DNA of 36,065 nucleotides from Ignavibacteriales bacterium (lineage in GTDB: Bacteria > Bacteroidota > Ignavibacteria > UBA10030): the NCBI GenBank assembly GCA_016207415.1, contig JACQPT010000091.1, positions 1 through 36,065 of the forward strand, read 5' to 3'. Both the position numbers and the translations under genes were made by a program. The notes below the pieces were generated by a model that was not told where the DNA came from, did not search any database, and was given only the letters and a program-made list of their open reading frames with translations. Positions 3,620 to 26,271 of this stretch are shown in pieces. The stretch's first letter is position 1. The number at the start of each line of letters is the position of its first letter.

Positions 3620-4495
3620 CTACATCACATGAATCACGAAAACGAATATCCGCTTGGGAACCAGGACGTACAAGAGGTTGCGAATGACGACGACATCCTG
3701 AAGCTCAGAGAGCTGTTCATCCGCAAGAATGAATCGGAGTGGCGTTCTGAGCGCCAACATCCCGGACCTCGAGAACCAGAAAAGAGTATCTCTGGCGACG
3801 GCGAGAAGACCATTCTCTACCGCTGCACAACTTCGCAATGAACTGAGCGCGCCATTGCCGACCGTCCTCACAAAATTACCAAAATAATCGAACTCGACAA
3901 TCCGATCCGGCTCAGCAACATAAATCCTGTCGTCGTTCGAGAGAACAATCTTGCCGGGTTGAACGAGCCTCCCCTTGGCGGCGTCAAAACTGCCAAAGGT
4001 CTGAAGATATCTGGAGTCGGCAGAAAATCGAACGATCCGGAGGTTCTCCCCATCCACGATGAAGAGGTCGCCCGACTTTGAAACCGCGACTGACATTGGG
4101 TAACCGAAGCGCGCCCCGGCGGCCGATGTATCACGGGTTGAGAGCGAGCTGACATAGTTGAGGTTCTTGTCGAAACGTTGGATGCGATGGTTGCCGTGGT
4201 CTGAGATAAACACATTGATCCCGTCTGTGGCGACGCCGCTCGGCCTGTCGAAGCTGGTCGTGGCCCACCCGTATCCGCCGATGACCGAGGACTCCCGACC
4301 GCGATTCTTGAGAACATGGACGACATTCTCGGCTTCATCGATGCAGTAGACCCATCCTTGTGGAGAAACGGCAAGCCTTGTGGCATGCTGAAACGAGCCG
4401 GCAGAGTATTCGTACTGTAAAACGGTGTCAGGAGGTGTTATCCGGGAAGCCGGGAGAGAAAAGAAGTACCACGTTATTGCAAGAATCGTTGCCAT
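3620..4495 (-). CDS. NHL-repeat beta-propeller protein
   Basis: 291 aa. Repeats such as RPSGVATDGINVFISDHGNHRIQRFD, YPMSVAVSKSGDLFIVDGENLRIVRFS and QPGKIVLSNDDRIYVAEPDRIVEFD. Overlaps the upstream gene by 22 nt. Confidence 0.85.
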   Translation of the reverse strand: MATILAITWYFFSLPASRITPPDTVLQYEYSAGSFQHATRLAVSPQGWVYCIDEAENVVHVLKNRGRESSVIGGYGWATTSFDRPSGVATDGINVFISDHGNHRIQRFDKNLNYVSSLSTRDTSAAGARFGYPMSVAVSKSGDLFIVDGENLRIVRFSADSRYLQTFGSFDAAKGRLVQPGKIVLSNDDRIYVAEPDRIVEFDYFGNFVRTVGNGALSSLRSCAAVENGLLAVARDTLFWFSRSGMLALRTPLRFILADEQLSELQDVVVIRNLLYVLVPKRIFVFVIHVM

Positions 4496-5835
4496 GTATC
4501 ATCGCGAAGTTCGCCGCGCTTGGTGGAATGGACGAGAACGTACTCACCGAAACCCGACCTGTCGACAAAGACAAATTCCACGCCGTTTTCAACTCCGTAG
4601 TAATGCCACACCTCATACGGCTTGCTCTCACCACTGGGATGACGCTCTACCTCGTCCGATTCGCCATATAGAATGAACACCCGTCCCCGGTCCGTTCTCC
4701 AACCGTCCTTTCCCATGACACGGTAACGCTGATTTGCCAGAGTCACGCGCGACAGGTATTCTGACCGCCTCATCGGATCCCGGCCAAGACGACCTGATTC
4801 GATTTCAACCCAGAATCTGCCGAGAAATTCTCTTCGCCCTTCAGCCGAGGTGACCTGTGAAAAAGTCTTCATCTCCTGATCCGTGGCGATGTATTGAGCT
4901 CTTCGAAATTCGTCCGCGAGCTCTTCCGCAGTCAATCCGTCAAGCTCGGTTGCCTTCAGCGACCCCGAGGAAATCTGCGCTGCCTGTAAGTGTGGATTAT
5001 ACACATAGAATGTCTTCGTTGCTTTTCCAATCTCCTCACCTCCAGCATTCGTCAAAAGAAGGTGATACCGATAGCGTCCAGACGGAATGGACGTGGTATT
5101 CACGGTGTTCACTTCAACGGCGTTGCTGACGGTGTAAAGCCTCGACTTTGAGGACTCGCGAATCGTCTTGTCCCGACCGTCAGTAATGGTCGATTTCAGA
5201 GTATACGGCGAGTTCTTACTTACGTTGTACACCTCAGCATAGACGAACATAACAGGGCTTCCCGTAACGCCAAAGACCAGAGTAGGGTTGGGAACGACAA
5301 TCATGGAGTTCTTGAAGAAAGGGTCGACTTTGTCGTCCGATTCCTTGATATTGGAACACAGCTCAAGGTCGCTGATGGCCGTAGCCCTGAACGGCGTCAC
5401 GGAAACGGGCAACCGTATGCTATCACGTCTCTCGGGACTAAGAGAGTCCACGGCAAGAACTGAGAGCATGTATTCACCGAACGCAAGAGAATACCCGGCC
5501 TGAGAAATGAACGTGTAATTGAAGGACTCGTCCAGAGTATCTTTGACGGAGATCGGCAAGGCGAAGGACCTGTTTAACAGTGCTTCACCGCCTTCCTTCT
5601 TCGTTAGGTTCACATGGAGCGTGATGGTACCTGAATATCTGTTATCCCGCAATTCGTAGGAGACAAGCCTTGGATAGAAGCCGTAGTAGATCTCGAGATA
5701 CCCTGCCTGGTCAGTGTGCCGGAAGGATGCATAGTCGAGGTTGAGAACCAGCGATGCCTTTGGAACAATGCGTTGGGCAACCGACGCCAGGGGAAGAAGA
5801 ACAAAGAGAAATGCGCAAGAGATGAGCCTGGTCAT
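4474..5835 (-). CDS. GWxTD domain-containing protein, exported
   Basis: 453 aa with signal peptide. C-terminal ...VTLANQRYRVMGKDGWRTDRGRVFILYGESDEVERHPSGESKPYEVWHYYGVENGVEFVFVDRSGFGEYVLVHST contains the GWxTD motif. ATGA overlap with the upstream gene. Confidence 0.88.
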   Translation of the reverse strand: MTRLISCAFLFVLLPLASVAQRIVPKASLVLNLDYASFRHTDQAGYLEIYYGFYPRLVSYELRDNRYSGTITLHVNLTKKEGGEALLNRSFALPISVKDTLDESFNYTFISQAGYSLAFGEYMLSVLAVDSLSPERRDSIRLPVSVTPFRATAISDLELCSNIKESDDKVDPFFKNSMIVVPNPTLVFGVTGSPVMFVYAEVYNVSKNSPYTLKSTITDGRDKTIRESSKSRLYTVSNAVEVNTVNTTSIPSGRYRYHLLLTNAGGEEIGKATKTFYVYNPHLQAAQISSGSLKATELDGLTAEELADEFRRAQYIATDQEMKTFSQVTSAEGRREFLGRFWVEIESGRLGRDPMRRSEYLSRVTLANQRYRVMGKDGWRTDRGRVFILYGESDEVERHPSGESKPYEVWHYYGVENGVEFVFVDRSGFGEYVLVHSTKRGELRDDTWQRFLQ

Positions 5836-8192
5836 TGTGTTCTCACTTGAGGATGGTCATAAGAAACAAGATTCACAAGAAACCGGAATGCGCCCGGATG
5901 GACGTTGAGCCACTGGTGGTCGAGGTTCAGGTCGACATAGGTTCTTCGTCCAGCCTTTGCTTTTTCTGTCACCACCAGAGGAAACTCTTGCCTGCCGACC
6001 TTCGCAGAAAGAAGCACCCGGGCCGAATTATTGTTTAGGATTCTTACCTTATTCACCCCTCTGCTGAAAATCCACCCGCTCCAATCCTCGTGGGTCAAGC
6101 GATGCGGTGTTGTCAGTAAATCGCTCAGACTGTCCCCTGCCAATTCACTCTCTGCGTCAAGGCCGAACGTCGGTTCGAGATGAATTCCTTTCATGAGCGG
6201 ATTGCGGTTCCAGCTCGCCGCATTCTGGGCAAGCACGACGAGATGCCCCCCCGCTTCAACGAATTCGTCCAGATGTCTTTTTTGCGATGTGAGGCCCCTG
6301 AGCCTGGCGAATGCTCCCCGGTCAACAACGACGCACTGAAACGACGCAAGCGACGGCATGGACTCAAGCTCCAGAATCGCCGGATGCATGTTCAGTCGTT
6401 GGAGCGTTTGAAGAAGCGGAGTGCTTTTACCGGCCGTGATAACGCCAAGAGAGACGATGGCGGGTGCCTCCACTTCAAACTTCCTTGCAACAAAATGAGC
6501 GACATCATTATCCGCGATCTTTACAGAAAGAAGGTAAGTGCTATCCCTCGCGTCGCTCTTCCAGCTGAGGGTAAGGGTGTCAGACCACACTGCGCCTTTT
6601 GCATTCAGCCGGAACTCTTTCTTCTCCGAGGTTACAAGCTGATCCATGACACAAATTGAATCTCTCACGCCATCCCGCGAATGGTTCGTTAACCGCACCG
6701 GAAGCTGCTCACCATCTCTGGCAAACACAACAGGCGCTTGCACCTCGACCGTGAACTTCTGTGAGAGAAAAATATCAAGACTTTGCCGATAGACAAAATT
6801 GTACAACGGGTTTCTCGACCTGTGGATAATAAGAAAATACATCTGACGGGCAAATTTCTCGTTTCGCAATCCATCGATCGACCACGGCACGTCGAACGTC
6901 CCTGCCGGCGGCGATAACAACCCGTATGGCTCATTGAGTCTCAGCGCCAGTCGAGGCTGTATATTTTCGTCGACGATCCATCCCTGCTGCGTAATGGGAA
7001 AATAGATCTCCTTCGTCCCCTCCTCCTGGATCCCCGTCACCGAGTCGATTTTGAGGAACGTCAACTGACGCGGCGCGAGCACTGCCTCGGAAAGGGAAAA
7101 CGAGACAGAGACGCCCAGAAGGACATTGCGAAGATTCTCAAGGCCTGTTTTCCATCGAGCCAATGATTTGATTTCAAACACGCCGCGTTCGGTCGCTTTG
7201 GGAATCTCCCGGTCAACGGACTCCATGACCAGAGCGATTGACTTCAGGTAACGGTCACGATTGACCGCATTTAAACGGGTGAGATTTTCACGCGAAAAGT
7301 CCGTCGTCAGCTTCTGGATTTCATTCTCCAGAGATCTGTACGCTGATGAAACGCGCGGAGGCAACCCTTCGTCCATCTTCTTAAGCTTAGCGCCTCGAGC
7401 AGAAGAAAGGAGTGTATAGGTGCGCTTCCCGGTTTTGCCAAGAACTTCACCCATAGTGGCCAGAGAATAATTCTTCAATGCTTCCTCACCCAGGGCTGCG
7501 TAGGTTTTCTTTAAGATTGAATGTCGTGAGCCTGTTTCCAGCGTCATTCCTTTTCCAGAGCCTTCGTCGAAGAAAACGCGATTTATCGTCCAATGCGCTT
7601 CACCGGCGCCGCCGGCCGGAGTTGATCCCTGAAGGGCTTTTTGAAGTGCCTGTCGAAGCACTTGAATCTGGGGGTTCTTCTCCCCGTGCAACAGGTCGCC
7701 GGTGAACAGAACGACATCCGGGCGAAATCGTGAAAAAAGCTCGCGTATCCTCGTGGCGAGAGTATCCCTGGGCCAAATGCTTCTGACGTGTTGCGAGTCG
7801 GAGGCGGCTACGATATCAGGTAAATTCATGAAGAGGTGATCGCAGTCCAAAGCCCGCGTGAAGCGGTATGCTTCGCCTCGCCTCCTTGCAGCTATCTCAT
7901 GCGGATACAGAGAAGAATCGTCGGGCTGGCCTCCTTCGCCGTTGGAAACATAAACGCTCAAGACTCTTGCACCTTTTCCAAGTCGAAAGTAGGCAAGTGC
8001 AGCGGCGTCTTCGTATCCGGGCTTAAGAGATATCATCATGACCTCAAAATTCCCGCAAAGTTCCAGGATCCGCTGGAAGAGATCAGTCTGGGTGCTCCTC
8101 CGGACATCCTGAATAATTGATTGGGCCTTGAGACTTGGGAGAAAAAGACTGAGAAGAATTGCTAGAAGAAACCTCATTGATCGAACACTCAT
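5832..8192 (-). CDS. PIG-L/LmbE-like multidomain protein with degenerate metal-binding motifs; C-terminal GATase-like/Ig-like region
   Basis: ORF 5832..8219. The N-terminal domain (VMMISLKPGYEDAAALAYFRLGKGARVLSVYVSNGEGGQPDDSS...RRRGEAYRFTRALD...IWPRDTLATRIRELFSRFRPDVVLF) aligns by eye with the ~800-aa PIG-L deacetylase family common in Bacteroidota. The start is likely Met at 8192 or 8177, because the longest ORF begins inside the terminator at 8217-8247. Confidence 0.7.
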   Translation of the reverse strand: MSVRSMRFLLAILLSLFLPSLKAQSIIQDVRRSTQTDLFQRILELCGNFEVMMISLKPGYEDAAALAYFRLGKGARVLSVYVSNGEGGQPDDSSLYPHEIAARRRGEAYRFTRALDCDHLFMNLPDIVAASDSQHVRSIWPRDTLATRIRELFSRFRPDVVLFTGDLLHGEKNPQIQVLRQALQKALQGSTPAGGAGEAHWTINRVFFDEGSGKGMTLETGSRHSILKKTYAALGEEALKNYSLATMGEVLGKTGKRTYTLLSSARGAKLKKMDEGLPPRVSSAYRSLENEIQKLTTDFSRENLTRLNAVNRDRYLKSIALVMESVDREIPKATERGVFEIKSLARWKTGLENLRNVLLGVSVSFSLSEAVLAPRQLTFLKIDSVTGIQEEGTKEIYFPITQQGWIVDENIQPRLALRLNEPYGLLSPPAGTFDVPWSIDGLRNEKFARQMYFLIIHRSRNPLYNFVYRQSLDIFLSQKFTVEVQAPVVFARDGEQLPVRLTNHSRDGVRDSICVMDQLVTSEKKEFRLNAKGAVWSDTLTLSWKSDARDSTYLLSVKIADNDVAHFVARKFEVEAPAIVSLGVITAGKSTPLLQTLQRLNMHPAILELESMPSLASFQCVVVDRGAFARLRGLTSQKRHLDEFVEAGGHLVVLAQNAASWNRNPLMKGIHLEPTFGLDAESELAGDSLSDLLTTPHRLTHEDWSGWIFSRGVNKVRILNNNSARVLLSAKVGRQEFPLVVTEKAKAGRRTYVDLNLDHQWLNVHPGAFRFLVNLVSYDHPQVRTQ

Positions 8193-8212
8193 GAGTGATG
8201 GTCCAGGAGAAG

Positions 8213-8247
8213 AAAACAAAAGGCTGTCTTTTGCAGACAGCCTTTTG
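8213..8247 (-). terminator. Rho-independent terminator of the PorV-like gene
   Basis: Perfect 12-bp inverted repeat caaaaggctgtc (8217-8228) / gacagccttttg (8236-8247), loop 8229-8235, T-rich 3' flank (TTTTGTTTTCTT) on the minus strand. Confidence 0.85.
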
Positions 8248-8271
8248 TTCTAATGCAGAGAGTAGTGCGGC

Positions 8272-9327
8272 TTAGAAGCCAAACTTCACGGTGAACACGT
8301 TGTTCGCGTCGAAAAGCTCGACGGAACGGTACGCATAGTCGATGGTGATGCCAATCCCCGGAGCTGCGTAATCCAGCCCGAAGCCGTAGGTAATGCCGAA
8401 GATGTTCTCTTTCAAATCAGAGTCGGCATCCGGGAGCATTGTACCTCCAACGCGCCCAAAGAGCCTTACCGACTCCATTCCCATCGAAATCTCACCACCG
8501 AACTTATACTCATCGAGATATAAGTTGTTGTTCGTGAAAGCGCCGTTCAACATGAGGTTCATGTTCTCGCCCACTGTAGCGTCATAAGCAAGGCCAACTT
8601 CGACCACCGAAGGCAGTTCGAAGCTCGCCGTTTCGCTCTTATACCGCTGTTCGGGACGTGTACCTTCTGTTGTGACGGCCAGCCTAAACAAGCCAGACCC
8701 GTCATACTTCATTTGAGGACCGATATTCTTAACCGTGACGCCCAAAAGAAGTCCTTGAACACCGACCAGGCCGTTGTATTGCACTCCGAAATCAACAGCG
8801 AACCCGCTCGATGAGACGCGTTCGATTTGTTCGGAGATGATTTTCAATGTGCCTCCGACTGAAATCGCATCTGTCAACGATCGAGCATAACTGAAACCAA
8901 AGGTGACGAACGTCGGTGAGTAAAAGCGTCCTGATGCGTTTTCAGGGTCGTCTTCTGTTGTCAGTGGAATGTCACCGAAATCGAGCGATTTGACGCTCAA
9001 TCCCACAGTTCCGAAATCGGCGAACTGAGCGGCAACAGCTCCGTAGCTTACTCCTATGTCGGCGATGTAGGACATCGACGAAAACATCGCTTCAGCCGAG
9101 GACTTCCCCATGCGGGCCATACCCGCCGGGTTCCAGTAGATGGCGTTCACGCCCATAGAGGAAGCAAGCCCCGCTCCGCCCATGGAAAGGTCACGAGCAC
9201 CGACGGGGATCAACAGCTCTGATGCCGCCGAGGTGCCAACCCTCTTATTCTGCGCAACTGAACTCGATACAACAACCGCAGCAGCCACGCAGAGAATCAT
9301 CAAAAGATATGATGTCTTGGTTTTCAT
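8272..9327 (-). CDS. PorV/PorQ family outer-membrane protein
   Basis: Contains SAASELLIPVGARDLSMGGAGLASSMGVNAIYWNPAGMARMGKSSAEAMFSSMSYIADIGVSYGAVA and a beta-barrel C-terminus ending in F. Start set at MKTKTSYLL (9327) with an AAGGAG upstream; the track ORF extends to 9363. Confidence 0.88.
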   Translation of the reverse strand: MKTKTSYLLMILCVAAAVVVSSSVAQNKRVGTSAASELLIPVGARDLSMGGAGLASSMGVNAIYWNPAGMARMGKSSAEAMFSSMSYIADIGVSYGAVAAQFADFGTVGLSVKSLDFGDIPLTTEDDPENASGRFYSPTFVTFGFSYARSLTDAISVGGTLKIISEQIERVSSSGFAVDFGVQYNGLVGVQGLLLGVTVKNIGPQMKYDGSGLFRLAVTTEGTRPEQRYKSETASFELPSVVEVGLAYDATVGENMNLMLNGAFTNNNLYLDEYKFGGEISMGMESVRLFGRVGGTMLPDADSDLKENIFGITYGFGLDYAAPGIGITIDYAYRSVELFDANNVFTVKFGF

Positions 9328-9366
9328 AGTATTCACTCCTTGTTTTCCTTTGTTGTTCTGCACGGC

Positions 9367-12300
9367 TTAGTACGAATCGAGGATTTCTTGTTCCTGAATA
9401 ACCGCCAGCTTCAGCACCTTGGTCACTGTCGACCCGTCCGACGGCAAGGTCATTTCCACGTGGGCGATGTACATGCCGCTCGCAACGGGGAAATTGAACC
9501 TGTTCAACAGATCCCACCGCACGAATTGTCCCGGATTGGAAACAGGATCCTTCGTGAGCACGCGCACCAGCTGACCCGCAAGATTGAAAATCCTGATGGT
9601 CGCCGTGGGCGGCAGGTTGCTGAAGGTGACGAATCGAGAGAACCGATTCGTCTCGGCAGCGTTGAACGCATAATACGGGTTCGGGAACACATTGACCAGA
9701 CCTGCACTTGCTATGTCCTGATCCGGGCCTGAGGCCGGTTTCGGAATGACATACGTGAAGACGTCGTTGGGCGTGTTTATCCTCGTCGGCGTAAAGTTGA
9801 TGTAATTCGGTGCACCCGGCCAGGGACGCGTGTTTCGTCGGGTCCATGACAGCCAGTACATGAATGGCATGTCACCACCAATGGCTTCTGCTTGGAAGAC
9901 GGCGTCCGCCGTACTGCCAGTGTATGTAGAGTTTGATATCCACAACCATTCTCTGGGACCCGAACCACCAATGTTGTCGCCATTCAAATCAGGCGGCCAG
10001 TAGAAGCCATTGACTGTTCCGCCGCTCGCGTTGTTTTCCAGGTATCCAAACGCAAGCCGTCTCGGAGGATTCGCGTCGACATCATAGACGGATAATGGTG
10101 CACTTATCCTGTAGTCCTGATATGAGTACCCTCCAGCAGTATTGATGATCCATGGAGCAAAGGAAGGCTGAGCTGCAGCTCCAGCGAACCCTCGACCATA
10201 TCGGTACGCGTATGAACCCGTGTCATCCGTACTGTTGTTAAAAGTCCCAATGTTGTCTGAAGTGGACTTGAATCGAATCGTGATTGCCTTCAATTGGTCC
10301 GCCCCAACAAACAGAGTTCCGTCTCCAAACACGTTTCGGGGTGAACCATAACCAGCGGCTCCGTTGAAATCCTCCCAACCGAAATCCCCTCCGACCCATG
10401 TCATGAATCGCGCGCCTGCAGAAGGTCCCCAACTCCACGCGCCAGGATTCAATCCCGGAGCCGGTCCCTCAACCTTGAGGTAAACGCCCCCTTCCACAAT
10501 CTTATAGTTGGCATCTCCACTCTGGTTAGTTTCGCCGCTCAGCAGTGTAGTATTCTTCGTCACATTGCGGAGCATCCATGTTGTGGTCAACGCTCCAGCA
10601 GCGGCAGATCCCGTGGTATCGAACGTCACTTGATAAGTATTTCCTGTCGCAGCTCCGGGGTTCACAACGATCGGACGAATTGTCCCATCAGTGTTACCTG
10701 TACCGGAGTGCGTAATCGAAAGCGTATCTCCCGTTCCCACAGCTGGAACCGCGCCAAAAGGTATCTTTGGCCGAACGGTAAACACGATCGGACTCGATTC
10801 TAGTTGACTGGGGAGATAACCTGTAACAGTAGATACAGCGTATGCTGTCACTGCCAGATAGTACTCCTGGCCATTATAGATTTTGTCGAAGTCCTTAATG
10901 TAGTCGCGATTGAATCTGAAATAGCGTTGAACGCCATTGTTCGTGCCAAACTGCACAGGGATGAAGAGAATCTGACCGCTGGATTGGTCAAACTGCTCGT
11001 CGAGCACGACGGTTGGGTCTGTCGGTTTATCGAAGGTCACCACCCGCTTGGAATCAGAAAGCCTGGCTCCGCGGCTCGGAAGCTGGTAAATATTGTAACC
11101 CTCGAATACGTATGCCCCAGGATTGCTCACTCGATTCTCGATATCGTTCACCCTTGTCAAGTTGCTCCCCCATTCGAGTGCTATCTCACCATCCAACTCC
11201 GCGAACTTCATATCGGGCGCTAAGGGTGGAGCTGGAACACTGAACAACGCGTTATAGGTGTTCTGGACAAACCGGTCATTGAACTTCATAACCGCCACGC
11301 TCGAGAGCCTGTCAGAACCCAGGCCGGCAACGACACCCACCACGACTTCTTGAGTATCACCCGGAGCCATCGTGAACGGCCCCGTGTTCAGGAGAATACG
11401 ACGGTCGCCCGGTACGAAGGAGTAGTTGGTTCCAAGGCCGTCGACAAAACCGGTCTGTTTAACCGGATCACCTGACAGAGGGAACCTCGGCGAAATGTAA
11501 GGACCGCTATTGTAGGGAACGTCGGCTGTGTTCTGATTTCCAATCGGAGCAAATCCCCTCAACATCTTCCACCATTGGAAGGTTCGGCAAATGTAAGCGC
11601 CGCCGGTGGAGTTGTTACAGGGATCGCTATACGGACTTCCGGCCGAGAAATATGCAAATGACGACATGGGGAGGTTTCTGACGCCGTACCGCTTCTTGAG
11701 GTCAAAGACTGCCGAGTCGCCCACTGCGGCTTCGATCGGTCCTGCGAGGAAATCGTATCCAACAGCAGGGGGCGGATAACCAAAGTTGTTGTAGGTTTCG
11801 TCAATGGCGTTTCCATTGTACACAAAACCCATGCTCAACGTAGAGTCGCAACCGGCAAGGTCGTCAGTAAACGAACCGAGGTCAACATCAGACCATAGGC
11901 AGACAAACATACTGTCAATCCAGAAACTCCCGTTGACAGCTGTTGTCGTGTGGCTCGTATCGACTCCACCTTTGTTAATTATCTTGATTCGCTTAAAGAA
12001 GAGCTGACCGAGTGCATCCGTTCTCTTGTAACCCCAAACCGTGAACTGAAACTCAAGGCCTAATGGCTCGGAGCCATGGAGGGCAATCGATACACTGGGA
12101 TTCAGGTCGTTACAAACAGTCCAGATCACCTGGTCCGCGGGCGAATTGGGATCGGACCCGGCAACGCCTGGCTCATCTCGATTCTGCGCAATTAAGCTGT
12201 CCACGGTGAACGTGGGACCGAATGCAGGAGGAGCCGTGTAAATGCCGTCGCCGTTCCTATCGACAAACGGGGAACCGAGAGAGACGGGCCAGTTCGTCCA

Positions 12301-12906
12301 GTCGAGTGCGTATTGCGCCACAACTGCCGCAACCTGCGCGTCGGTAACCGACGTGACTGGGATTTCGTTGATTTCTGCCGCATCGCGCCTTAATTCCTGG
12401 TCCGTCATTGCAAGATAGTCGCGGCGGATTCTGTAACTTCGCGCATCTGCATGTGTCGGAGCAATAGCAGTCGCACCAACGCCAGAACCGGTGACCCATC
12501 CTGCTGACAATCCATAGCTGTATCCTTTACCACCAACGCGCACCGTTTGACGCGGGGCTTGGGTCGTTTTTGCAGCATTCGTAAACGCCTTTCCACCAAA
12601 ATAAAACCCGTCGGTGTAAATGGCGTTGCCGGTTCCACGCGGATAGACTGCCTGGTTATCCCCGTGGGGAGAAAGTGCACCGGGCGCATCACGCCGTACC
12701 CAATTGACGAAGTTGTTGATGTTCAAGATCGTCCAGGCTGGGTTACCGGCCGTCTTGGAAATTGCCCGCGCGCGCGGCTTTGTCTTGTCCGGGATATCCT
12801 CCGCAAAGGAGTTCGACCAGACGACGAGTCCTGCGAGCAGGATCAGAAAGTTGATCAGTTTGAAAGAAGGATTTCTCATGGGAACAATTCCTTTTTTTGT
12901 TGACAA
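9367..12906 (-). CDS. Large secreted protein with T9SS type A sorting domain
   Basis: 1179 aa with signal peptide. C-terminal VFPNPYYAFNAAETNRFSRFVTFSNLPPTATIRIFNLAGQLVRVLTKDP...VRWDLLNRFNFPVASGMYIAHVEM...VLKLAVIQ is typical of the Por secretion CTD. Confidence 0.88.
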   Translation of the reverse strand: MSTKKGIVPMRNPSFKLINFLILLAGLVVWSNSFAEDIPDKTKPRARAISKTAGNPAWTILNINNFVNWVRRDAPGALSPHGDNQAVYPRGTGNAIYTDGFYFGGKAFTNAAKTTQAPRQTVRVGGKGYSYGLSAGWVTGSGVGATAIAPTHADARSYRIRRDYLAMTDQELRRDAAEINEIPVTSVTDAQVAAVVAQYALDWTNWPVSLGSPFVDRNGDGIYTAPPAFGPTFTVDSLIAQNRDEPGVAGSDPNSPADQVIWTVCNDLNPSVSIALHGSEPLGLEFQFTVWGYKRTDALGQLFFKRIKIINKGGVDTSHTTTAVNGSFWIDSMFVCLWSDVDLGSFTDDLAGCDSTLSMGFVYNGNAIDETYNNFGYPPPAVGYDFLAGPIEAAVGDSAVFDLKKRYGVRNLPMSSFAYFSAGSPYSDPCNNSTGGAYICRTFQWWKMLRGFAPIGNQNTADVPYNSGPYISPRFPLSGDPVKQTGFVDGLGTNYSFVPGDRRILLNTGPFTMAPGDTQEVVVGVVAGLGSDRLSSVAVMKFNDRFVQNTYNALFSVPAPPLAPDMKFAELDGEIALEWGSNLTRVNDIENRVSNPGAYVFEGYNIYQLPSRGARLSDSKRVVTFDKPTDPTVVLDEQFDQSSGQILFIPVQFGTNNGVQRYFRFNRDYIKDFDKIYNGQEYYLAVTAYAVSTVTGYLPSQLESSPIVFTVRPKIPFGAVPAVGTGDTLSITHSGTGNTDGTIRPIVVNPGAATGNTYQVTFDTTGSAAAGALTTTWMLRNVTKNTTLLSGETNQSGDANYKIVEGGVYLKVEGPAPGLNPGAWSWGPSAGARFMTWVGGDFGWEDFNGAAGYGSPRNVFGDGTLFVGADQLKAITIRFKSTSDNIGTFNNSTDDTGSYAYRYGRGFAGAAAQPSFAPWIINTAGGYSYQDYRISAPLSVYDVDANPPRRLAFGYLENNASGGTVNGFYWPPDLNGDNIGGSGPREWLWISNSTYTGSTADAVFQAEAIGGDMPFMYWLSWTRRNTRPWPGAPNYINFTPTRINTPNDVFTYVIPKPASGPDQDIASAGLVNVFPNPYYAFNAAETNRFSRFVTFSNLPPTATIRIFNLAGQLVRVLTKDPVSNPGQFVRWDLLNRFNFPVASGMYIAHVEMTLPSDGSTVTKVLKLAVIQEQEILDSY

Positions 12907-12917: not shown

Positions 12918-12953
12918 AAATCGGAAGGAGCGGCCCTGCATGGAGCCGCCCCC
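12918..12953 (-). terminator. Probable Rho-independent terminator of the TonB-dependent receptor gene
   Basis: Minus strand GGGGCGGC TCCATGCAGG GCCGCTCC, 8-bp GC-rich stem with one G-U pair, followed by TTCCGATTTTT. Confidence 0.65.
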
Positions 12954-12958
12954 TTCGC

Positions 12959-15900
12959 CTACAATTCTACTCTCATTCCAACGCGAATTTCACGAGGCGC
13001 TCCAAACACGTCGCCAAAGGCCGCACCGCCGCCAAAGGGATCCTCCCCTGCTTGCATAATACCCCAACGGTTCTGGAGATTGATCGCCTTGTAGAACGCT
13101 TCGTAATTGGGCAGCTCTTTATACGACGTTGCCAGCGGGCTCTTCAGCCAACCGTCGTCATACGGAGTCCCTGTGGTCGGGTAGACGTTGATGATGTTCT
13201 TCGTGTTCAACAGGTTCAACACATTGACAAAGAGCTCGAAATTGAACATGTCCATGTAGAACATCTTGTTCCAGTTCAAGTCAATGTTGAAGACCCAGGG
13301 TGTGGTGGAACTGTTCACAGGCTCTACGGGGTTCCTCGAACGAGAGTCGAGCATCGCGCGGATGCCTATATTCCAGGGGTTTGCCTGTCCGAGGTTCTGT
13401 GGCTCTTTGATCTTGGTGTAAGGGTGACCGCTGTTGAACGTCAGCAATGCGTTGAAACCCATTCCTTCCAGGATCGCGCCGCCGTCGCCTTTGTCAAATC
13501 GGTAGTCCAACATCACCGATCCGCGATGCACCTGATTGTAGTGCAACGGGTTGATGAACAGGGGGAACCTCGCTGATGCTTCGTCCGTCACGCCGTTTGA
13601 AGAAGAAAGCGGCGTCGAACCCGTTCCGCGTGCATCCGAAAGGGTATAATTCACCTTGGCTGCAAGGCGGTTTGTTCTCCGCAGTTCGAACGTGAACTCC
13701 AACCCCTTCACAGTCCCAAAATCTTCGTTCTGAAGGGCAACAAACATAGGACCGCCAAGGTCGTCAAACACACGGCGAATCGAAAGCTGATTGCGGAGAT
13801 CCTTGTAGAACCCGGAAATCGTCAACGCAAAGTTGTCGGCAAGTGACTGACGAAGACCGACTTCATACTGCGTGTTCCGCTCCGGTTTCATCAAGAATGA
13901 CGGGATGGAACCTCCCAACCAGTACGGCTGGCGAACGCTCGAGTTCAACCGCCCGTTCAAATTCACCAGGCTGTTGTAAAGCGTGTTCAGCGACGGCTGT
14001 TGGGCATATTTTCCGTAGAGAGCGTAGAAAACGGTTCGGTCCGTGACTGGGAAGGAGAAGCTAATCCTTGGTAAAAGCAGACTAATCGGGTCGGCTTCGA
14101 CAAATGCCGTTTCGTCGATCATGTTCAACGCGCCATGCCCATCCAAGGGCGGGGATTTGAACAACGTCGAAGGCAACGTCAAGCCCTTTGTGCTGATGTA
14201 TTCATACCGGACACCAACATTAAGGATCAGGTCGTTATACTCGAATTTGTTCTGAATGTAGGACGAGGCTAACACTGGCTTGTACGGCTTGTCCAGCAGA
14301 GTGCCGTTGTAGTCAAACCCTTCAGACTCGTTTCCATCGACATCGTAGCCGTAGTTCGTAACGGCCCGTCGCACGATTTCGACTCGGCGTGTATAGTCGT
14401 CAACGAAAGTTTTCTCGGGGTCGGTTCCGAACCTACCGTATAAGTACGTCATGTATTCGGACGGTGACACCGAGAAGAGCCTCATCGTCCAGCTATCGAT
14501 GCGGCCCCCGAGTTTCAATTCCCATCGGGAATTGACCTGGGAAGTAAGGTCAAGGGTGATTCCAACCGAATTCTGTTTGTTGATCTGGTAACCATCATTC
14601 GGCGTATTCGGGTGTGCAAAGACGAACCGGAAAATCGTCGAATAACTCGCTGGCCCTTGAAATCTCGATTGAAAACCAGTGTACCCGAGTTCCGCGTTCT
14701 TGATACTATCCGTGTAGGACTTCCAGTCGTCGCCAAAAAGTGGGTCATAACTTCTGAAAGTTCTTGACTGATACGAGAGTCCAACCTCATAAAACGTCGT
14801 GGGATTCAACACGTGCGTAAGGCGTGCATTGCCAAACAGGGTCTTCGTTTCATTACGACTAGACCTCCCGTTCTGAATCCGATAGTAGCTTCCGAGAGCG
14901 CCCGGCCAGTTTCCTAACGACGGGCTCTGATTAAACGTGTAGCTTCCCGTGAATCGCAGTTTGATCTGGTTCAAGTCAAACAGCAGGGTTCCCTGTCCCA
15001 CATGGTTCTCATTCCAGTTGCCCGAGAGGTTGTTCTTCTTGTATTCCACGGGTCCCGGTAACGGAGTTCCCGCTGGATATGTGCCAAGTCCATCCTCAGT
15101 CAGGTTTTCAAAAAGGAAGGGCTCCAGGAACATCTGCTGCCTGTTTCTGAAAAAATTCAGTTCATAGGCGCCAAAGAACCTGATGTCGTTTGTGCCGAGA
15201 GGGCCACCAACTGTAGCGACGAGGTTCTTGAATCCACGAGATGTCGTCCCGAGGAAGTCTTCACCGCCCGTTGCAAAATCGTCCGTCTGGTACGACAGCG
15301 AAGCTTTGAGGTCGGAACCGCCGGTTCGCACTGTCTGTCGGATAATACCGGCATTGCCGCCTCCATGCTCAGCCGTCCATCCGCCGGATTGAAGCTGAAG
15401 TTCTTCGAGCGCTTCCTGAACGACGCTGACATTTTGGCTGTTGAACAGCGGGTTCGTCGTGTTGGCGCCGTCGATGAAGTATGCGATTTCGCCAGCTCGG
15501 CCACCGCGAACGTACAGGTTACCTCGCTGCTGCACGACGCCCGCTTCCAGAGCGATGATGTTCTGGACGCCGCGGAACGGAATGTTTCGAATATTTTCCT
15601 GCGTGTTGATCCTGATGGTGTTGGTGGTGTTGCGCTGGATGAGAGGACGCTCAGCGACAACTTCTACGGGGCGCTGTTGAACGGCAGTGCTCGAGAGCGC
15701 AAAATCCTGTGTCGTCGTGATATTCGAGTTGACGCGGACATCAGAGATCGTATACGGTGAGTAACCAATGTAGGAAGCTTTCACCGTGTAGTTACCGGCA
15801 GGAACGCTAAGAATGATATACTCACCGTTGACATCCGTTGAGGCGCCAAGTGTGGTACCGTCTATCACAACGTTTGCACCAATGAGTGGTTCACCCGATT

Positions 15901-16000
15901 CCTTGTCCGTTACTTTGCCCCGCAACTTACCGTCTTGGGCAAACAACAAGGCCGGAAGAAGGAATAACGAGATGAAAGGAATCAAAAGCTTGCGTAGCAT
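12959..16000 (-). CDS. TonB-dependent receptor with N-terminal carboxypeptidase-like regulatory domain
   Basis: 1013 aa with signal peptide, then LRGKVTDKESGEPLIGANVVIDGTTLGASTDVNGEYIILSVPAGNYTVKASYIGY (CarboxypepD_reg-like), plug domain (NIIALEAGVVQQRGNLYVRGGRAGEIAYFIDG) and a beta-barrel with outer-membrane receptor character. Confidence 0.9.
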   Translation of the reverse strand: MLRKLLIPFISLFLLPALLFAQDGKLRGKVTDKESGEPLIGANVVIDGTTLGASTDVNGEYIILSVPAGNYTVKASYIGYSPYTISDVRVNSNITTTQDFALSSTAVQQRPVEVVAERPLIQRNTTNTIRINTQENIRNIPFRGVQNIIALEAGVVQQRGNLYVRGGRAGEIAYFIDGANTTNPLFNSQNVSVVQEALEELQLQSGGWTAEHGGGNAGIIRQTVRTGGSDLKASLSYQTDDFATGGEDFLGTTSRGFKNLVATVGGPLGTNDIRFFGAYELNFFRNRQQMFLEPFLFENLTEDGLGTYPAGTPLPGPVEYKKNNLSGNWNENHVGQGTLLFDLNQIKLRFTGSYTFNQSPSLGNWPGALGSYYRIQNGRSSRNETKTLFGNARLTHVLNPTTFYEVGLSYQSRTFRSYDPLFGDDWKSYTDSIKNAELGYTGFQSRFQGPASYSTIFRFVFAHPNTPNDGYQINKQNSVGITLDLTSQVNSRWELKLGGRIDSWTMRLFSVSPSEYMTYLYGRFGTDPEKTFVDDYTRRVEIVRRAVTNYGYDVDGNESEGFDYNGTLLDKPYKPVLASSYIQNKFEYNDLILNVGVRYEYISTKGLTLPSTLFKSPPLDGHGALNMIDETAFVEADPISLLLPRISFSFPVTDRTVFYALYGKYAQQPSLNTLYNSLVNLNGRLNSSVRQPYWLGGSIPSFLMKPERNTQYEVGLRQSLADNFALTISGFYKDLRNQLSIRRVFDDLGGPMFVALQNEDFGTVKGLEFTFELRRTNRLAAKVNYTLSDARGTGSTPLSSSNGVTDEASARFPLFINPLHYNQVHRGSVMLDYRFDKGDGGAILEGMGFNALLTFNSGHPYTKIKEPQNLGQANPWNIGIRAMLDSRSRNPVEPVNSSTTPWVFNIDLNWNKMFYMDMFNFELFVNVLNLLNTKNIINVYPTTGTPYDDGWLKSPLATSYKELPNYEAFYKAINLQNRWGIMQAGEDPFGGGAAFGDVFGAPREIRVGMRVEL

Positions 16001-19872: not shown

Positions 19873-20406
19873 CTAACTCTTCTTCACTGAGGGGGCTGCA
19901 GCTTCTGCTTTCGCCTCTTTCGACGCCGTCTTTTCTTTTTGTGAAGACTTCTTCGTCTTGTTCGCCCCGCCTTTTGCTGCTTTTGCCGCAGGTTTCGCCG
20001 CGGCTTTTTCCTGGCCCGTATTGTAGTCGACAAGTTCGATCACGGCGAGCTCTGCTCCGTCACCGTATCGCCTGCCGAGCTTGACCACACGGGTGTAGCC
20101 TCCCGGTCGGTTCGCAACTTTTGGAGCTATGTCGTTAAACAATGTCGAAACGGCAGCACGGTCGCGAAGGAACGCGAACACCTGTCGGCGCGCGTGAACG
20201 TTCTTCAGTTTTCCGTCGCCTTCGTGCGCCACGGCGTTCTTTGCACGCGTGATGAGCTTTTCAACAAACATGCGTGTTTCTTTTGCCTTTGCCGCCGTCG
20301 TCCAGATCTTCTTGTGCTGAATGAGCGAGGCACTGAGAGCCGCCAGGGTTGCCTTGCGGTGACTCGAGGTGCGTTTCAGCTTTCTGCCTGATTTCAGATG
20401 TCGCAT
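19873..20406 (-). CDS. rplQ: 50S ribosomal protein L17 with Lys/Ala-rich C-terminal extension
   Basis: [53 protein letters not shown]; tail [43 protein letters not shown]. Confidence 0.97.
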
Positions 20407-20424
20407 AGCGTTTCCTTACCTCGT

Positions 20425-21411
20425 CTACTCGTTACCGTCTTTCAGATACTTGTCCACATCCATTCCGAAATTCAATCCGTACTCGTCGACAATCGCAGCG
20501 AGCTCAGCAAGCGATTTCCGCCCAAAGTTGCGGAACTTGAGCAATTCGGATTCGTTCCGGCGTACCAGGTCCGCCATTGTTTTGATGTTCGCTGAACGCA
20601 AGCAGTTGTGCGAACGCACAGAGAGCTCGAGCTCATCGACGGACATCTTCAGGATCTTCCGGATACGACTCACCTCACCTTCCTGCTGACTCTCAATCTT
20701 CTCCGTCTCGGGCTCCGTTCCAAAATTGATGAAAAGCTGGACATGATCCCTGAGAATTTTCCCTGCGTGCGTCAGCGCATCCTGGGGAGAGATGGAACCG
20801 TCTGTCTCGATCTCGATGACAAGTTTTTCAAAATCTGTCTGGCCGCCGACGCGTGTCGGCTCTACGAGATACCGGACATTCATGATCGGCGTAAAAATCG
20901 AATCGACGGCAATCATGCCCAACGGCTGGTCGGGAGACTTGTTCTCTTCGGCCGCTGCGTAACCTTTGCCACGGCCAAGACGCAATTCGATCTCAAAGTC
21001 CGCGTCCTTGTTAAGCGAGGCAAGGTGGCAATCGGGGTTGAGAATTTCGATCTCGCTGGTAGCTTTCTGCAGGTCGGCTGCAACGAACTCGCCGGGTCCT
21101 TTCATGGGAACCGTGATTTTCGTGGCTTTCTTATTCACGGGTTTGATCCGAACTTGTTTTAGGTTCAGAATAAAGTCCGCAACATCTTCAACCATCCCTT
21201 TGATCGTCGAGAATTCGTGCTGAATCCCGTCGACCCGGATGGCCGTGATAGCCGTACCGGGAAGCGACGAGAGGAGCACCCGGCGGAAGGAATTCCCCAA
21301 AGTGACTCCGAAGCCCTTCTCCAGCGGCTGGACGGTGAATCGGCCAAACGTTGCGGTTGCGGACGACTCCTCGAGTTCAATTCTTTCAGGCATTTGGACA
21401 AACGTGCTCAT
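20425..21411 (-). CDS. rpoA: DNA-directed RNA polymerase subunit alpha
   Basis: 328 aa. FTVQPLEKGFGVTLGNSFRRVLLSSLPGTAITAIRVDGIQHEFSTIKGMVEDV and alpha-CTD LELSVRSHNCLRSANIKTMADLVRRNESELLKFRNFGRKSLAEL. Confidence 0.98.
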   Translation of the reverse strand: MSTFVQMPERIELEESSATATFGRFTVQPLEKGFGVTLGNSFRRVLLSSLPGTAITAIRVDGIQHEFSTIKGMVEDVADFILNLKQVRIKPVNKKATKITVPMKGPGEFVAADLQKATSEIEILNPDCHLASLNKDADFEIELRLGRGKGYAAAEENKSPDQPLGMIAVDSIFTPIMNVRYLVEPTRVGGQTDFEKLVIEIETDGSISPQDALTHAGKILRDHVQLFINFGTEPETEKIESQQEGEVSRIRKILKMSVDELELSVRSHNCLRSANIKTMADLVRRNESELLKFRNFGRKSLAELAAIVDEYGLNFGMDVDKYLKDGNE

Positions 21412-21477
21412 AATGTTCTTTCCCTCGCTGATGACGAGGATGTTAAGAGTTCAAAATCTTGAATGGAATTCTTCTCA

Positions 21478-22107
21478 CTACTTCGAATACAATTCAACAA
21501 TAAGTTGCTCATTTGCATTGAGTGGTATATCCGGCCGCTCGGGGATGTTCAGGAACGTTCCCGACATCGTCGCCTTATCCAGGCTGAGCCACGGTAACAT
21601 TGCTGTGTCCTTCATCCGCTTCATAGAGGAGTGGATGATCTCCAGCTTCCTGCTTTTGTCCTGAACATGAACCACATCTCCTGGGTTCAACAAATAGGAC
21701 GGCACGTCGACAACGCGATTATTGACCGTGAAGTGCCGATGGAGAATTAGCTGCCGTGCGGCTTTTCGCGATGGTGCAAGCCCGAGACGATAGACGACGT
21801 TGTCGAGCCTCCGCTCAAGCATCTTCACGAGCATGTCTCCCGTGCGTCCAGTGACCTTCAGCGCCCGTTCGAAATAATTCCGGAACTGAGATTCCAACAG
21901 GCCGTACGCCCTCCGCACCTTTTGTTTCTCACGCAGCTGCAAGCCGTATTCCGAGATTCGGGATCGACGGGACTGCCCGTGCTGTCCGGGTGGATACGAG
22001 CGTCTCTCCACAGGGCATTTATCCGTATAACACTTCGTGCCCTTCAAAAACAGCTTCTGCCGCTCCCTGCGACACAGTTTGCAACTGGCATCCAAGTATC
22101 TTGCCAT
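21478..22107 (-). CDS. rpsD: 30S ribosomal protein S4 (zinc-binding type)
   Basis: MARYLDASCKLCRRERQKLFLKGTKCYTDKCPVERRSYPPGQHG, four-Cys motif; S4 domain. Confidence 0.97.
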   Translation of the reverse strand: MARYLDASCKLCRRERQKLFLKGTKCYTDKCPVERRSYPPGQHGQSRRSRISEYGLQLREKQKVRRAYGLLESQFRNYFERALKVTGRTGDMLVKMLERRLDNVVYRLGLAPSRKAARQLILHRHFTVNNRVVDVPSYLLNPGDVVHVQDKSRKLEIIHSSMKRMKDTAMLPWLSLDKATMSGTFLNIPERPDIPLNANEQLIVELYSK

Positions 22108-22184
22108 AGACCTCCTAGGGTGAACTCAAAAACACTTCGTTATTCTGCAGTTTCTTGTTCGAAATTCAGACTCACACTTTAATA

Positions 22185-22583
22185 TTATACCCGACGACGC
22201 TTTGGCGGACGGCATCCGTTGTGAGGAATCGGGGTGATATCTCGAATCATCGTCACTTCCAGGCCGGCGGTTTGGAGCGAACGCACCGCCGCCTCACGGC
22301 CTCCGCCGGGGCCTTTAATAAACACCTCCACACGCTTCAACCCAAGGTCAACAGCTTCCTTCGCCGCCGCTTCAGCCGCGACCTGAGCCGCAAACGGTGT
22401 GCTCTTGCGCGAACCTTTGAACCCGTTCTTCCCGGCCGATGACCATGCGATGACGTTTCCGTACGTGTCCGTCAGGGTAACAATCGTGTTGTTAAAGGTC
22501 GCCTTGACGAAAGCCTTGCCGTTTGCGTCGACGTGGACTTTCTTTTTCTTCTTTGTAACCGGAGCCGCTACCTGTTTAGCCAA
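22185..22583 (-). CDS. rpsK: 30S ribosomal protein S11
   Basis: [48 protein letters not shown]...[11 protein letters not shown]. Confidence 0.97.
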
Positions 22584-22727
22584 AAAACGTTTCTCCTTGA
22601 ATTAGCTCAGTGGATTGTTCGATTATTGGATTGTAGTCTGAGGCAAAGATTAGGTTTTTGACTGATCATTGATTCACTATCCATTCATCCACTAATCCAT
22701 TGTTCCTCTGTTGCTTTGACTTCGCCG

Positions 22728-23111
22728 CTATTTCTTCTCAATCGCCTTCTTCTTGCCCGCGACAGTCTTTCGTTTGCCTTTCCGCGTGCGAGCGTTCGTC
22801 CGTGTCCGCTGTCCGCGCACGGGTAATCCTTTGCGGTGGCGAAGCCCGCGGTAGGAGCCAATGTCCATGAGGCGCTTTGTGTTGAGCTGAGCTTCGCTCC
22901 TCATCGCCCCCTCCACTTTGTAATCGCTCTGGATCACAGAACGGATGCTGGCCACTTCTTCGTCGCTCAGGTCGGCGACCCGTTTGTTCAGGTCGACCTT
23001 GGCTTTTGTGAGAATATCCTGAGACGATGACCTGCCGATACCGTAGATATAGGTCAGGCCGATTTCCACGCGTTTGTTTTTTGGCAAATCAACTCCTGCA
23101 ATGCGAGCCAC
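22728..23111 (-). CDS. rpsM: 30S ribosomal protein S13
   Basis: [34 protein letters not shown]...[32 protein letters not shown]. Confidence 0.97.
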
Positions 23112-23130
23112 TCGTCAATACTCCTTATGT

Positions 23131-23244
23131 TTATCCCTGACGCTGCTTGTGTTTAGGGTTCTTGCAAATAACGTGAACCACTCCCTTGCGCTTGATGATT
23201 TTGCAATTCTCGCAAAGTTTTTTTACCGACGATCGAACTTTCAT
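23131..23244 (-). CDS. rpmJ: 50S ribosomal protein L36 (zinc-binding type); absent from the ORF track because of its size
   Basis: Own translation of the minus strand: [37 protein letters not shown] (37 aa), C-C-C-H ligands intact, between infA and rpsM as expected. Confidence 0.96.
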
Positions 23245-23257
23245 GTTGAATCCTCAG

Positions 23258-23476
23258 CTACTTATAGCGATACGTAATTCTGCCCTTGGTGAGATCATAC
23301 GGCGACATTTCCACCGTCACACGGTCTCCCACAAGGATCTTGATGTAGTGCATCCGCATTTTCCCTGAAATGTGAGCCAGAATCTCATGTCCACTGTCCA
23401 GTTTCACTCTGAAGGTCGCATTCGGAAGAGTCTCGGTAATCACTCCGTCTACTTTAATAGGACCTTGCTTTGCCAT
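23258..23476 (-). CDS. infA: Translation initiation factor IF-1
   Basis: 72 aa. [72 protein letters not shown]. Confidence 0.98.
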
Positions 23477-24244
23477 TCAGTTTGGTACTTGAGTTAAGAT
23501 CTCCGGCTTCCCGTTCACAATGGCGATTGTGTGTTCAAAATGAGCCGACGGCATGCCGTCCTGCGTGACGATCGTCCAGCCGTCTGCCAGAACGCGGACC
23601 TTCCAGGTTCCATAGTTCACCATGGGTTCGATGGCCAGGGTCATCCCCGTTTTCAGCCTCACGCCGGTACCCGGATCGCCAAAATTCGGGACCGAAGGTT
23701 CTTCGTGAAGTTCTTTGCCCACGCCATGTCCCACCAAATCCCGAACGATGGAGAATCCGTTGATCTCGACATATTCCTGCACTGCATGCGAGATATCATG
23801 AACCCGGTTCCCCTCGATCGCTTTTTCAATCCCCCGATACAACGCCTCTTCTGTCACACGCAGCAAGCGCTCTTTTTCTTCCGAGATTTCTCCGACGGGG
23901 AATGACCAGGCTCCGTCTCCGTAATACCCGTCTTTTTTTACTCCAACATCTACGGAGAGAATTTCGCCTTCCTTGAGCATCCGTCTTCCCGGTATTCCGT
24001 GGACGACTTCCGAGTCCACCGACGTGCAGAGGGTTCCCGGAAAGAGGTTGTGCTTACTGCTCCCGTATCCCTTGAAGGCGGGAACGGCCTCAAACGACCT
24101 GATGTATTCTTCCGCCAGTCTGTCGAGTTCCAGCGTCGTGACACCCGGCTTCACTTCGGCTCCGACGAGCCTGAGAACTTCTGCCACGATCCTGGAGCTC
24201 TCGCGCATTAGCTCGATTTCGCGTTTCGATTTGAGCTGCACCAT
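23477..24244 (-). CDS. map: Type I methionyl aminopeptidase
   Basis: 255 aa. GYGSKHNLFPGTLCTSVDSEVVHGIPG, VDVGVKKDGYYGDGAWSFPVG, GHGVGKELHEEPSVPNFG. Confidence 0.96.
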   Translation of the reverse strand: MVQLKSKREIELMRESSRIVAEVLRLVGAEVKPGVTTLELDRLAEEYIRSFEAVPAFKGYGSSKHNLFPGTLCTSVDSEVVHGIPGRRMLKEGEILSVDVGVKKDGYYGDGAWSFPVGEISEEKERLLRVTEEALYRGIEKAIEGNRVHDISHAVQEYVEINGFSIVRDLVGHGVGKELHEEPSVPNFGDPGTGVRLKTGMTLAIEPMVNYGTWKVRVLADGWTIVTQDGMPSAHFEHTIAIVNGKPEILTQVPN

Positions 24245-24254
24245 CGGCCATTTC

Positions 24255-25601: not shown

Positions 25602-25609
25602 GAGCTGCC

Positions 25610-26080
25610 TTATTGAGAAAGAACAATCGCTTTTCCACCCGCCGCTTGGATTTTTTCCAGCGCAGATTTGCTGAACGCATGGACGCTGACTTCAATTTTG
25701 GATTTCAAGTCGCCGTTTCCCAGGATCTTGATCGGCACATCTTTCTTTGAAACGGCGCCCGCATTATACAGCGATTCTGGGGTGACGGCCGTCCCGTCAA
25801 TCTTCTTTGTGGAAACGAGGCGTTCGAGAGTTTCCAGGTTGACGATCTGGGCCTCGACTCGATTATGCGGCTTGAAGCCAAACTTCGGGATTCTGCGCAA
25901 CAGCGGCATCTGCCCGCCCTCGAACCACAGTTTGAACTTATGACCCGAACGGGAGCGCGCTCCCTTGTGACCTTTCGTCGCCGTGCCGCCGTGGCCGGAT
26001 CCTTGACCTCGGCCGATCCGCTTGACGCGTCGTCGCGAACCTTTGGCGGGAGTGAGATTGCTCAGGATGTCCTTGCCCAC
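25610..26080 (-). CDS. rplO: 50S ribosomal protein L15 (GTG start overlapping the rpmD stop)
   Basis: VGKDILSNLTPAKGSRRRVKRIGRGQGSGHGGTATKGHKGARSRSG. GTG at 26078-26080 overlaps the rpmD TAG at 26080-26082. The longer track ORF (to 26164) is out-of-frame read-through of rpmD. Confidence 0.95.
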   Translation of the reverse strand: MGKDILSNLTPAKGSRRRVKRIGRGQGSGHGGTATKGHKGARSRSGHKFKLWFEGGQMPLLRRIPKFGFKPHNRVEAQIVNLETLERLVSTKKIDGTAVTPESLYNAGAVSKKDVPIKILGNGDLKSKIEVSVHAFSKSALEKIQAAGGKAIVLSQ

Positions 26081-26271
26081 TATTTTACCTCTTCGACTTT
26101 GACGAGATGACGCACGGTATTGATCATTCCCCGCACCTGAAGCGTATCGTTCTTCACCACCCAATAATTGGGACGTCCGAGCCCGAGCGCCTTTATTGTC
26201 CGCTTGGCGTTTTCGAGTTGCTTGATGATGCTCTTCGTCTGCGTGATCTTTATTTTTTTCGATTCAGCCAT
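26080..26271 (-). CDS. rpmD: 50S ribosomal protein L30
   Basis: MAESKKIKITQTKSIIKQLENAKRTIKALGLGRPNYWVVKNDTLQVRGMINTVRHLVKVEEVK. Confidence 0.95.
   Translation of the reverse strand: MAESKKIKITQTKSIIKQLENAKRTIKALGLGRPNYWVVKNDTLQVRGMINTVRHLVKVEEVK

Follow-up and report, generated by a model that had tools for sequence, protein, structure and literature searches.

An exported PIG-L/LmbE homologue of Ignavibacteriales that has very probably lost zinc catalysis and might serve a neighbouring outer-membrane module

What might a deacetylase homologue be kept for once its metal site has been lost? Inactive homologues of enzymes are a common and well-known kind of protein, and the question is raised here by a gene at positions 5832 to 8192 on the minus strand of a 36,065-nucleotide stretch of DNA from an Ignavibacteriales bacterium (contig JACQPT010000091.1, assembly GCA_016207415.1), which is referred to below as the window. 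The original prediction saw in its product, here called pseudo-PIG-L, a member of the PIG-L/LmbE family that is probably catalytically dead and repurposed in the cell envelope. The reading favoured here, with a probability of about 0.5, is that pseudo-PIG-L belongs to a clade of exported pseudo-deacetylases and serves the outer-membrane module encoded next to it as a binding or scaffold subunit, its ligand being left unnamed. Of the parts of this reading, the absence of zinc catalysis of the LmbE type appears close to certain from the aligned sequences, and the binding or scaffold role within the module, as suggested by the gene neighbourhood and a shift in conservation, is a tentative proposal that may well turn out otherwise.

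Homology of pseudo-PIG-L to the PIG-L/LmbE family was recovered, as claimed originally, with the Pfam profile PF02585 (E = 2.4e-10; 41.5 bits against a cut-off of 28.2). The match is limited to profile positions 23-109, and the HPDDE-bearing start of the profile is therefore unmatched. In MshB, the zinc ion is bound by His13, Asp16 and His147, Asp15 is the general base and His144 binds the substrate (PMC4101496). When pseudo-PIG-L is aligned to large homologues that retain the catalytic set (the intact cousins), all five MshB-type residues are missing, AHPDDED being replaced by LKPGYED and HGxH[QT] by NPQI, and the loss of the metal-binding motifs noted earlier is thus borne out. With residues counted from a TTG codon at 8219, the altered motifs are:

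8007-8024, minus strand: degenerate motif 1, K66-P-G-Y-E-D71 for H-P-D-D-E-D (zinc His to Lys, base Asp to Gly, zinc Asp to Tyr)
7935-7943, minus strand: N93-G-E95, for R-G-E of the intact cousins (alignment columns)
7665-7688, minus strand: degenerate motif 2, H178-G-E-K-N-P-Q-I185 at the site of H-G-x-H-[QT] (alignment)
7467-7469, minus strand: Tyr251, for the His of H-x-[TS]-Q, which is invariant in the intact cousins (alignment)

The register of these motifs is secure because P67, E70, D71, G94, E95, E116 and W149 are common to both groups. His178 (in LLHGEKNPQ) is not conserved among relatives and is followed at +3 by Lys, so that the distal zinc His is missing in either register.

The same loss recurs across a clade. 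A scan of genome contigs with the single sequence gave no match; relatives were found by tblastn and profile searches, which yielded full-length proteins with identities of about 21-40% in about 38 of 81 genomes from the order, some of them split at contig ends. Their record titles name Ignavibacteria, Ignavibacteriales, Bacteroidetes, KSB1, (Neo)marinimicrobia and one Deferribacteres, and some of these titles may be binning or naming errors. As a 27-row alignment proved too divergent for patterns, a closer alignment was then used. A first set consisted of 36 relatives and the window protein, all degenerate, and 26 large cousins with all catalytic residues; 18 further loci, examined after the rule separating the two groups had been seen, added 11 degenerate and 7 intact ones. 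As L139 is the same record as L082, the later sample fits the rule in 10/10 distinct degenerate members and 7/7 cousins, and the distinct totals are 47 degenerate sequences and 33 intact large homologues with the full catalytic set. Of the 47 clade members, all lack the base Asp and all lack the distal zinc His; the counterpart of MshB His144 is absent in the window protein and in all clade members aligned, and at most one zinc ligand out of three is retained in any member. The first zinc His survives in one member (L043) and the zinc Asp in three (L050, L064 and L082), by which the stronger statement that every member lost all catalytic residues is ruled out; several later-sampled members have Glu at the zinc Asp position. 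The clade is marked by the signature P-x-x-E-D (nearly always P-G-x-E-D), mostly T/S-N-G-E, and Tyr for His at 251; the intact cousins read TRGEGGQN (one with N for R), HGxH[QT] and HxTQ. Within the 47 sequences P67, E70 and D71 are unchanged, G68 is altered once, N93 twice, Y251 once (to Phe) and E95 in four later-sampled sequences.

The suggestion that such degeneration might be clade-conserved under purifying selection also held, with 47/47 sequences affected, one supported branch, and dN/dS (the ratio of nonsynonymous to synonymous substitution rates) of 0.17-0.22 when the codons of close pairs (dS no higher than 1.2) are compared, an intact pair giving 0.14. In an unrooted maximum-likelihood tree (quick search, 58 rows, motif columns removed) the degenerate and intact sets fall on opposite sides of a single branch with a support of 100 in the Shimodaira-Hasegawa-like approximate likelihood ratio test (SH-aLRT), and the window protein is not on the side of the HPDDE-bearing large proteins; from the superfamily, we infer that the intact state is ancestral. 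Conservation has moved as well. As the two sets differ in depth, mean pair identities are to be compared between regions within each set: they amount to 0.52 for the PIG-L part versus 0.20 for the middle part in the intact cousins, and to 0.34, 0.30 and 0.30 for the PIG-L, middle and C-terminal parts, respectively, in the degenerate clade, whose conservation peak is no longer in the PIG-L domain. In the 27-row alignment, six of the seven invariant N-domain columns are located in the former pocket motifs (P67, E70, D71, G94, E95 and Y251), and the site is therefore still constrained and not simply released.

As for the gene itself, the predicted open reading frame at 5832-8192 is real, and all strings quoted for it (NGEGGQ, RRGEAYRFTRALD, IWPRD, RFRPDVVLF, SLKPGYED, LLHGEKNPQ and the C-terminal stretch) are found in its translation. 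The frame extends over 5832-8219 on the minus strand when the TTG is included, 8192 being the ATG of codon 10. The ATG at 8192, or another at codon 15, is a better start than the TTG, the former being favoured because the TTG sits within a strong hairpin. The N-terminus resembles a Sec-type signal peptide, which by eye ends in LKAQ with Ser following, and relatives have similar hydrophobic N-termini; pseudo-PIG-L should therefore be periplasmic or otherwise exported. The protein is laid out as follows:

5832-8192, minus strand: pseudo-PIG-L, 786 amino acids from the ATG at 8192, or 795 from the TTG at 8219
8124-8192, minus strand (residues 10-32): putative Sec-type signal peptide, ...MRFLLAILLSLFLPSLKAQ followed by S (read by eye)
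7440-8123, minus strand (residues 33-260): PIG-L/LmbE-fold domain (Pfam, AlphaFold2 model, PDB fold search)
7110-7439, minus strand (residues 261-370): helical linker, the least conserved part of the mature protein
6474-7109, minus strand (residues 371-582): two predicted Ig-like domains (model and fold matches)
5835-6452, minus strand (residues 590-795): predicted C-terminal GATase-like or GH42 domain-B-like domain (model and weak fold match)

The PIG-L profile also matches 27/27 scanned relatives at E <= 0.01, and in the genome it finds four genes, namely two of ordinary size, the large C81 and, as the weakest, pseudo-PIG-L. The AlphaFold2 model of residues 33-795 has a mean predicted local distance difference test score (pLDDT) of 79, and the N-domain alone reaches a pLDDT of 78 and a predicted template modelling score (pTM) of 0.81. 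All of the top 42 PDB matches of the N-domain model are LmbE-fold proteins (E from 3.2e-9, template modelling score about 0.5-0.6), amongst them MshB, diacetylchitobiose deacetylase, TT1542, BC1534, BshB, teicoplanin-type deacetylases, LnmX and GalB, and a Rossmann-like LmbE fold of the modelled N-domain is thereby supported. The kinship to solved structures rests on this fold search because a PDB sequence profile search with pseudo-PIG-L returned only noise. A fold search with the full-length model found Ig-like folds and, weakly, GH42 enzymes; the latter match is read, on the basis of predicted secondary structure and known families, as belonging to the C-terminal GATase-like part. The earlier view of a GATase-like C-terminus in a retained multidomain layout agrees with this weak match and with the presence of the C-terminal domain in the intact cousins, too.

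The outer-membrane module invoked above lies directly next to the gene. On the minus strand the genes follow each other in the order serA, TonB-receptor-like, a 1179-amino-acid protein with the tail of the type IX secretion system (T9SS), PorV/PorQ-family, pseudo-PIG-L, GWxTD, NHL, single-stranded DNA-binding protein and gamma-glutamyltranspeptidase, and the neighbours concerned are:

12959-16000, minus strand: TonB-dependent-receptor-like protein with carboxypeptidase-regulatory and plug domains
9367-12906, minus strand: candidate cargo, a secreted protein of 1179 amino acids carrying a T9SS type A sorting domain (TIGR04183, 23.9 bits against a cut-off of 23, a narrow pass)
8272-9363, minus strand: PorV/PorQ-family outer-membrane protein (NF033709, 153 bits against a cut-off of 90)
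8213-8251, minus strand: terminator-like hairpin with a 17-bp stem, AAAAGGCTGTCT..AGACAGCCTTTT, after the PorV-family gene
4474-5835, minus strand: GWxTD-domain protein, whose ATG overlaps the stop codon of pseudo-PIG-L by 4 nt (ATGA)
3620-4495, minus strand: NHL-repeat protein, overlapping the GWxTD gene

With the PorV equivalog model, the PorV-family protein stays below the cut-off (72 versus 250). The order receptor, cargo, PorV, pseudo-PIG-L is found in most sufficiently long loci, and both a KSB1 contig (L076) and one of Neomarinimicrobiota (L083) show it; GWxTD and NHL genes often come next. The genome encodes a PorU sortase (982 bits), and the PorU model also matches weakly at more than 20 other places, in most cases through its C-terminal part; the SprA model finds no match in this genome, nor in any control genome. 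The hairpin at 8213-8251 has a stem of the AAGGCTG..CAGCCTT type (z -6.1), and exact AAGGCTG palindromes are located after PorV in seven of seven cases in 0.96 Mb of loci, mostly this locus or paralogous ones.

Some further observations concern these surroundings. The candidate cargo matches no Pfam family, yet homologues of it occur in 54 of 61 relatives, whose genomes often have several of them, adjoining TonB-like and PorV-family genes. After pseudo-PIG-L, the loci L044, L045, L046 and L056 each carry another receptor/PorV-family set, to which a further cargo is added in L046 and L056; this suggests a local duplication of the module. A terminator-like hairpin of 12 pairs is also present at 12925-12954, where it separates the TonB-like gene from that of the cargo. 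In L130 an unrelated reading frame of 758 amino acids (3625-5898, minus strand), whose C-terminus by eye resembles a T9SS tail, takes the place of pseudo-PIG-L; this frame, one of 664 amino acids after PorV in L123 and one of 306 in L131 were tried as lost homologues and gave no match. The intact large cousins of L066-L070, all in one family, are encoded a few genes away from a GWxTD gene, and the surroundings of the one in L067 comprise a lipid A acyltransferase, a glycosyltransferase 9 and an ABC transporter. Further along the window, positions 19873 to 36010 hold an ordinary cluster of ribosomal-protein genes that also includes rpoA, secY and, apparently cut at the contig end, an EF-Tu gene.

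Since nearly the same loss is kept in 47 sequences, usually next to the same genes for outer-membrane and secretion proteins, pseudo-PIG-L is probably a retooled envelope protein and neither an enzyme nor a broken gene, and the carbohydrate-binding, structural or sensory envelope role suggested originally would fit the signal peptide and the neighbourhood. As the alignments show, the pocket motifs of the clade were changed near-uniformly (base Asp to Gly, Arg to Asn, His to Tyr). According to the mechanism proposed here, the clade would be old and periplasmic, and the remodelled pocket might hold, without cleaving it, a glycan such as an amino sugar of peptidoglycan or lipopolysaccharide, or a loop of a partner protein, with the Ig-like and GATase-like domains making protein contacts. 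The partners would be the TonB-like receptor, the T9SS cargo and the PorV-family protein, and in the window probably the GWxTD protein too. In Flavobacterium and Porphyromonas, T9SS cargo/shuttle pairs can be co-encoded with an accessory cell-wall-binding protein, and an anchored complex has been proposed (PMC12618676). By analogy, pseudo-PIG-L could speculatively fill this anchoring place because its relatives bind substrates containing N-acetylglucosamine. Taken by itself, a glycan as the ligand is unlikely. Doubtful, too, is the widest version of the proposal, in which pseudo-PIG-L would define an undescribed family of periplasmic pseudo-deacetylases, and would anchor glycans as a structural component of an envelope machine, likewise undescribed, that is made up of the TonB-like receptor, the T9SS cargo, and the PorV-family and GWxTD proteins and is common to Ignavibacteria and some other bacteria of the Fibrobacteres-Chlorobi-Bacteroidetes (FCB) group.

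A number of findings weigh against a role of pseudo-PIG-L as a subunit of the module. The GWxTD gene is located 3' of pseudo-PIG-L in many loci but not in all of them (none is there in, e.g., L044, L045, L046, L048, L055, L059, L061 and L062), and in the class-level relative L099 the cargo and PorV genes were not found adjoining pseudo-PIG-L. Moreover, receptor, cargo and PorV, in some cases together with GWxTD and NHL, are kept without pseudo-PIG-L in several relatives (L119, L126, L128 and others), and the gene is therefore an often-present accessory that is non-essential to the module. A stem related to the hairpin at 8213-8251 occurs after PorV in most relatives among loci L035-L090, and L120, a locus that showed no pseudo-PIG-L, has one, too; as the hairpin lies between PorV and pseudo-PIG-L, receptor, cargo and PorV on the one hand and pseudo-PIG-L on the other may be separate transcripts, and the notion of a single operon was toned down accordingly. 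Finally, Arg113, which is aligned with an Arg invariant in the intact cousins and on this alignment probably corresponds to MshB Arg68, is kept in only 70% of the clade, and the case for a retained sugar site is weakened thereby.

Other explanations compete with a binding or scaffold role. An inert PIG-L fold with an empty pocket, kept as a structural spacer for Ig-like and GATase-like parts that do the work, would agree with the even spread of conservation over the protein and with the low model confidence of the loop segments at the old site; it is nevertheless unlikely, as it is in the old pocket motifs that the invariant columns of the N-domain cluster. These columns could also be those of an enzyme with other chemistry, metal-independent or with a relocated metal, that works via the near-uniform E70, D71, E95 and Y251, all of which are invariant in the 27-row alignment. 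The LmbE fold can host other reactions, the hydratase GalB being among the fold matches, and a few members have a single ligand or the Glu at the zinc Asp position. However, E70, D71 and E95 are just as conserved in the intact cousins and are therefore not new catalytic residues, and in the later sample E95 and Y251 do not hold throughout the clade, being lost in the four members and the one member given above. In addition, the displaced conservation peak speaks against an active PIG-L domain, and the column comparison reveals no His, Cys, Asp or Glu in the N-domain whose conservation is specific to the clade, the strongly conserved acidic columns all being common in the intact cousins as well. 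Substitute His or Asp ligands, the objection foreseen in the original prediction, thus appear to be lacking, and an enzyme of other chemistry is improbable.

Only a slim chance is given to a pseudoenzyme-enzyme pair, in which pseudo-PIG-L would regulate, or associate with, an intact PIG-L enzyme of its own cell. The intact large paralogue C81 and two other PIG-L genes are present in the genome, and the vicinity of a GWxTD gene is shared by the intact cousins of one family, the one in L067 being encoded beside lipid A acyltransferase and glycosyltransferase 9 genes. Yet in the loci read no intact PIG-L gene stands beside pseudo-PIG-L, and five genomes that are at least 94% complete (G004, G012, G037, G052 and G053) carry pseudo-PIG-L without a second match at E <= 1e-3, in a survey that did not extend to small PIG-L enzymes; partnering with a large intact PIG-L protein is less likely for this reason. 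A decaying pseudogene or a sequencing artefact, for which nothing speaks except the loss of catalytic residues itself, is practically untenable and was rejected, being contradicted by full-length open frames in dozens of genomes, by purifying selection (dN/dS about 0.2) and by the clade-wide, like loss in 47 sequences.

In the literature searched, which was limited in extent, no account of a clade-wide inactive PIG-L/LmbE homologue was found, and NCBIfam has no model for the pseudo-PIG-L clade, whose proteins will tend to be labelled deacetylases by automatic annotation from the Pfam match alone. If the role proposed here is true, pseudo-PIG-L would offer a handle on a widely kept, unstudied envelope module of mostly uncultured FCB-group bacteria, and a clear example of how an enzyme becomes a binding or scaffold protein, for which intact cousins are at hand as a comparison.

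With respect to known systems, pseudo-PIG-L is like the PIG-L/LmbE deacetylases (MshB, BshB/BC1534, TT1542 and the archaeal diacetylchitobiose deacetylase) in the fold of its N-domain and its Pfam match, and shares with them P..E of motif 1 as well as the GE motif and, for the most part, that of R..E. It differs from them in the lack of the zinc ligands and the base Asp, and in being an exported protein of 786 amino acids with helical, two Ig-like and GATase-like domains. GalB (4-carboxy-2-hydroxymuconate hydratase) is likewise an LmbE-fold protein other than a deacetylase, but was named an enzyme by its depositors, whereas pseudo-PIG-L is without the catalytic set. Similar in layout, with an N-terminal PIG-L part and the C-terminal domain of pseudo-PIG-L, are the large exported PIG-L proteins of Bacteroidota with an intact HPDDE[DN] motif (e.g. 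C81 of genome G000 and L066-L070), which are homologous over much of their length but keep every catalytic residue and fall on the other side of the tree. As to the module, accessory envelope proteins are known in T9SS systems (PMC12618676, PMC5562754), and both the SprB/SprF type of Flavobacterium and the PorU-PorV-PorQ-PorZ attachment complex resemble the locus in the window, where a T9SS-tailed cargo gene likewise adjoins one of the PorV/PorQ family. In contrast to the SprB/SprF type, however, where a type B tail goes with PorP/SprF, the tail in the window is type A-like and paired with a protein of the PorV/PorQ family, and compared to the T9SS cargo/shuttle systems a TonB-like receptor and a protein of PIG-L fold are added.

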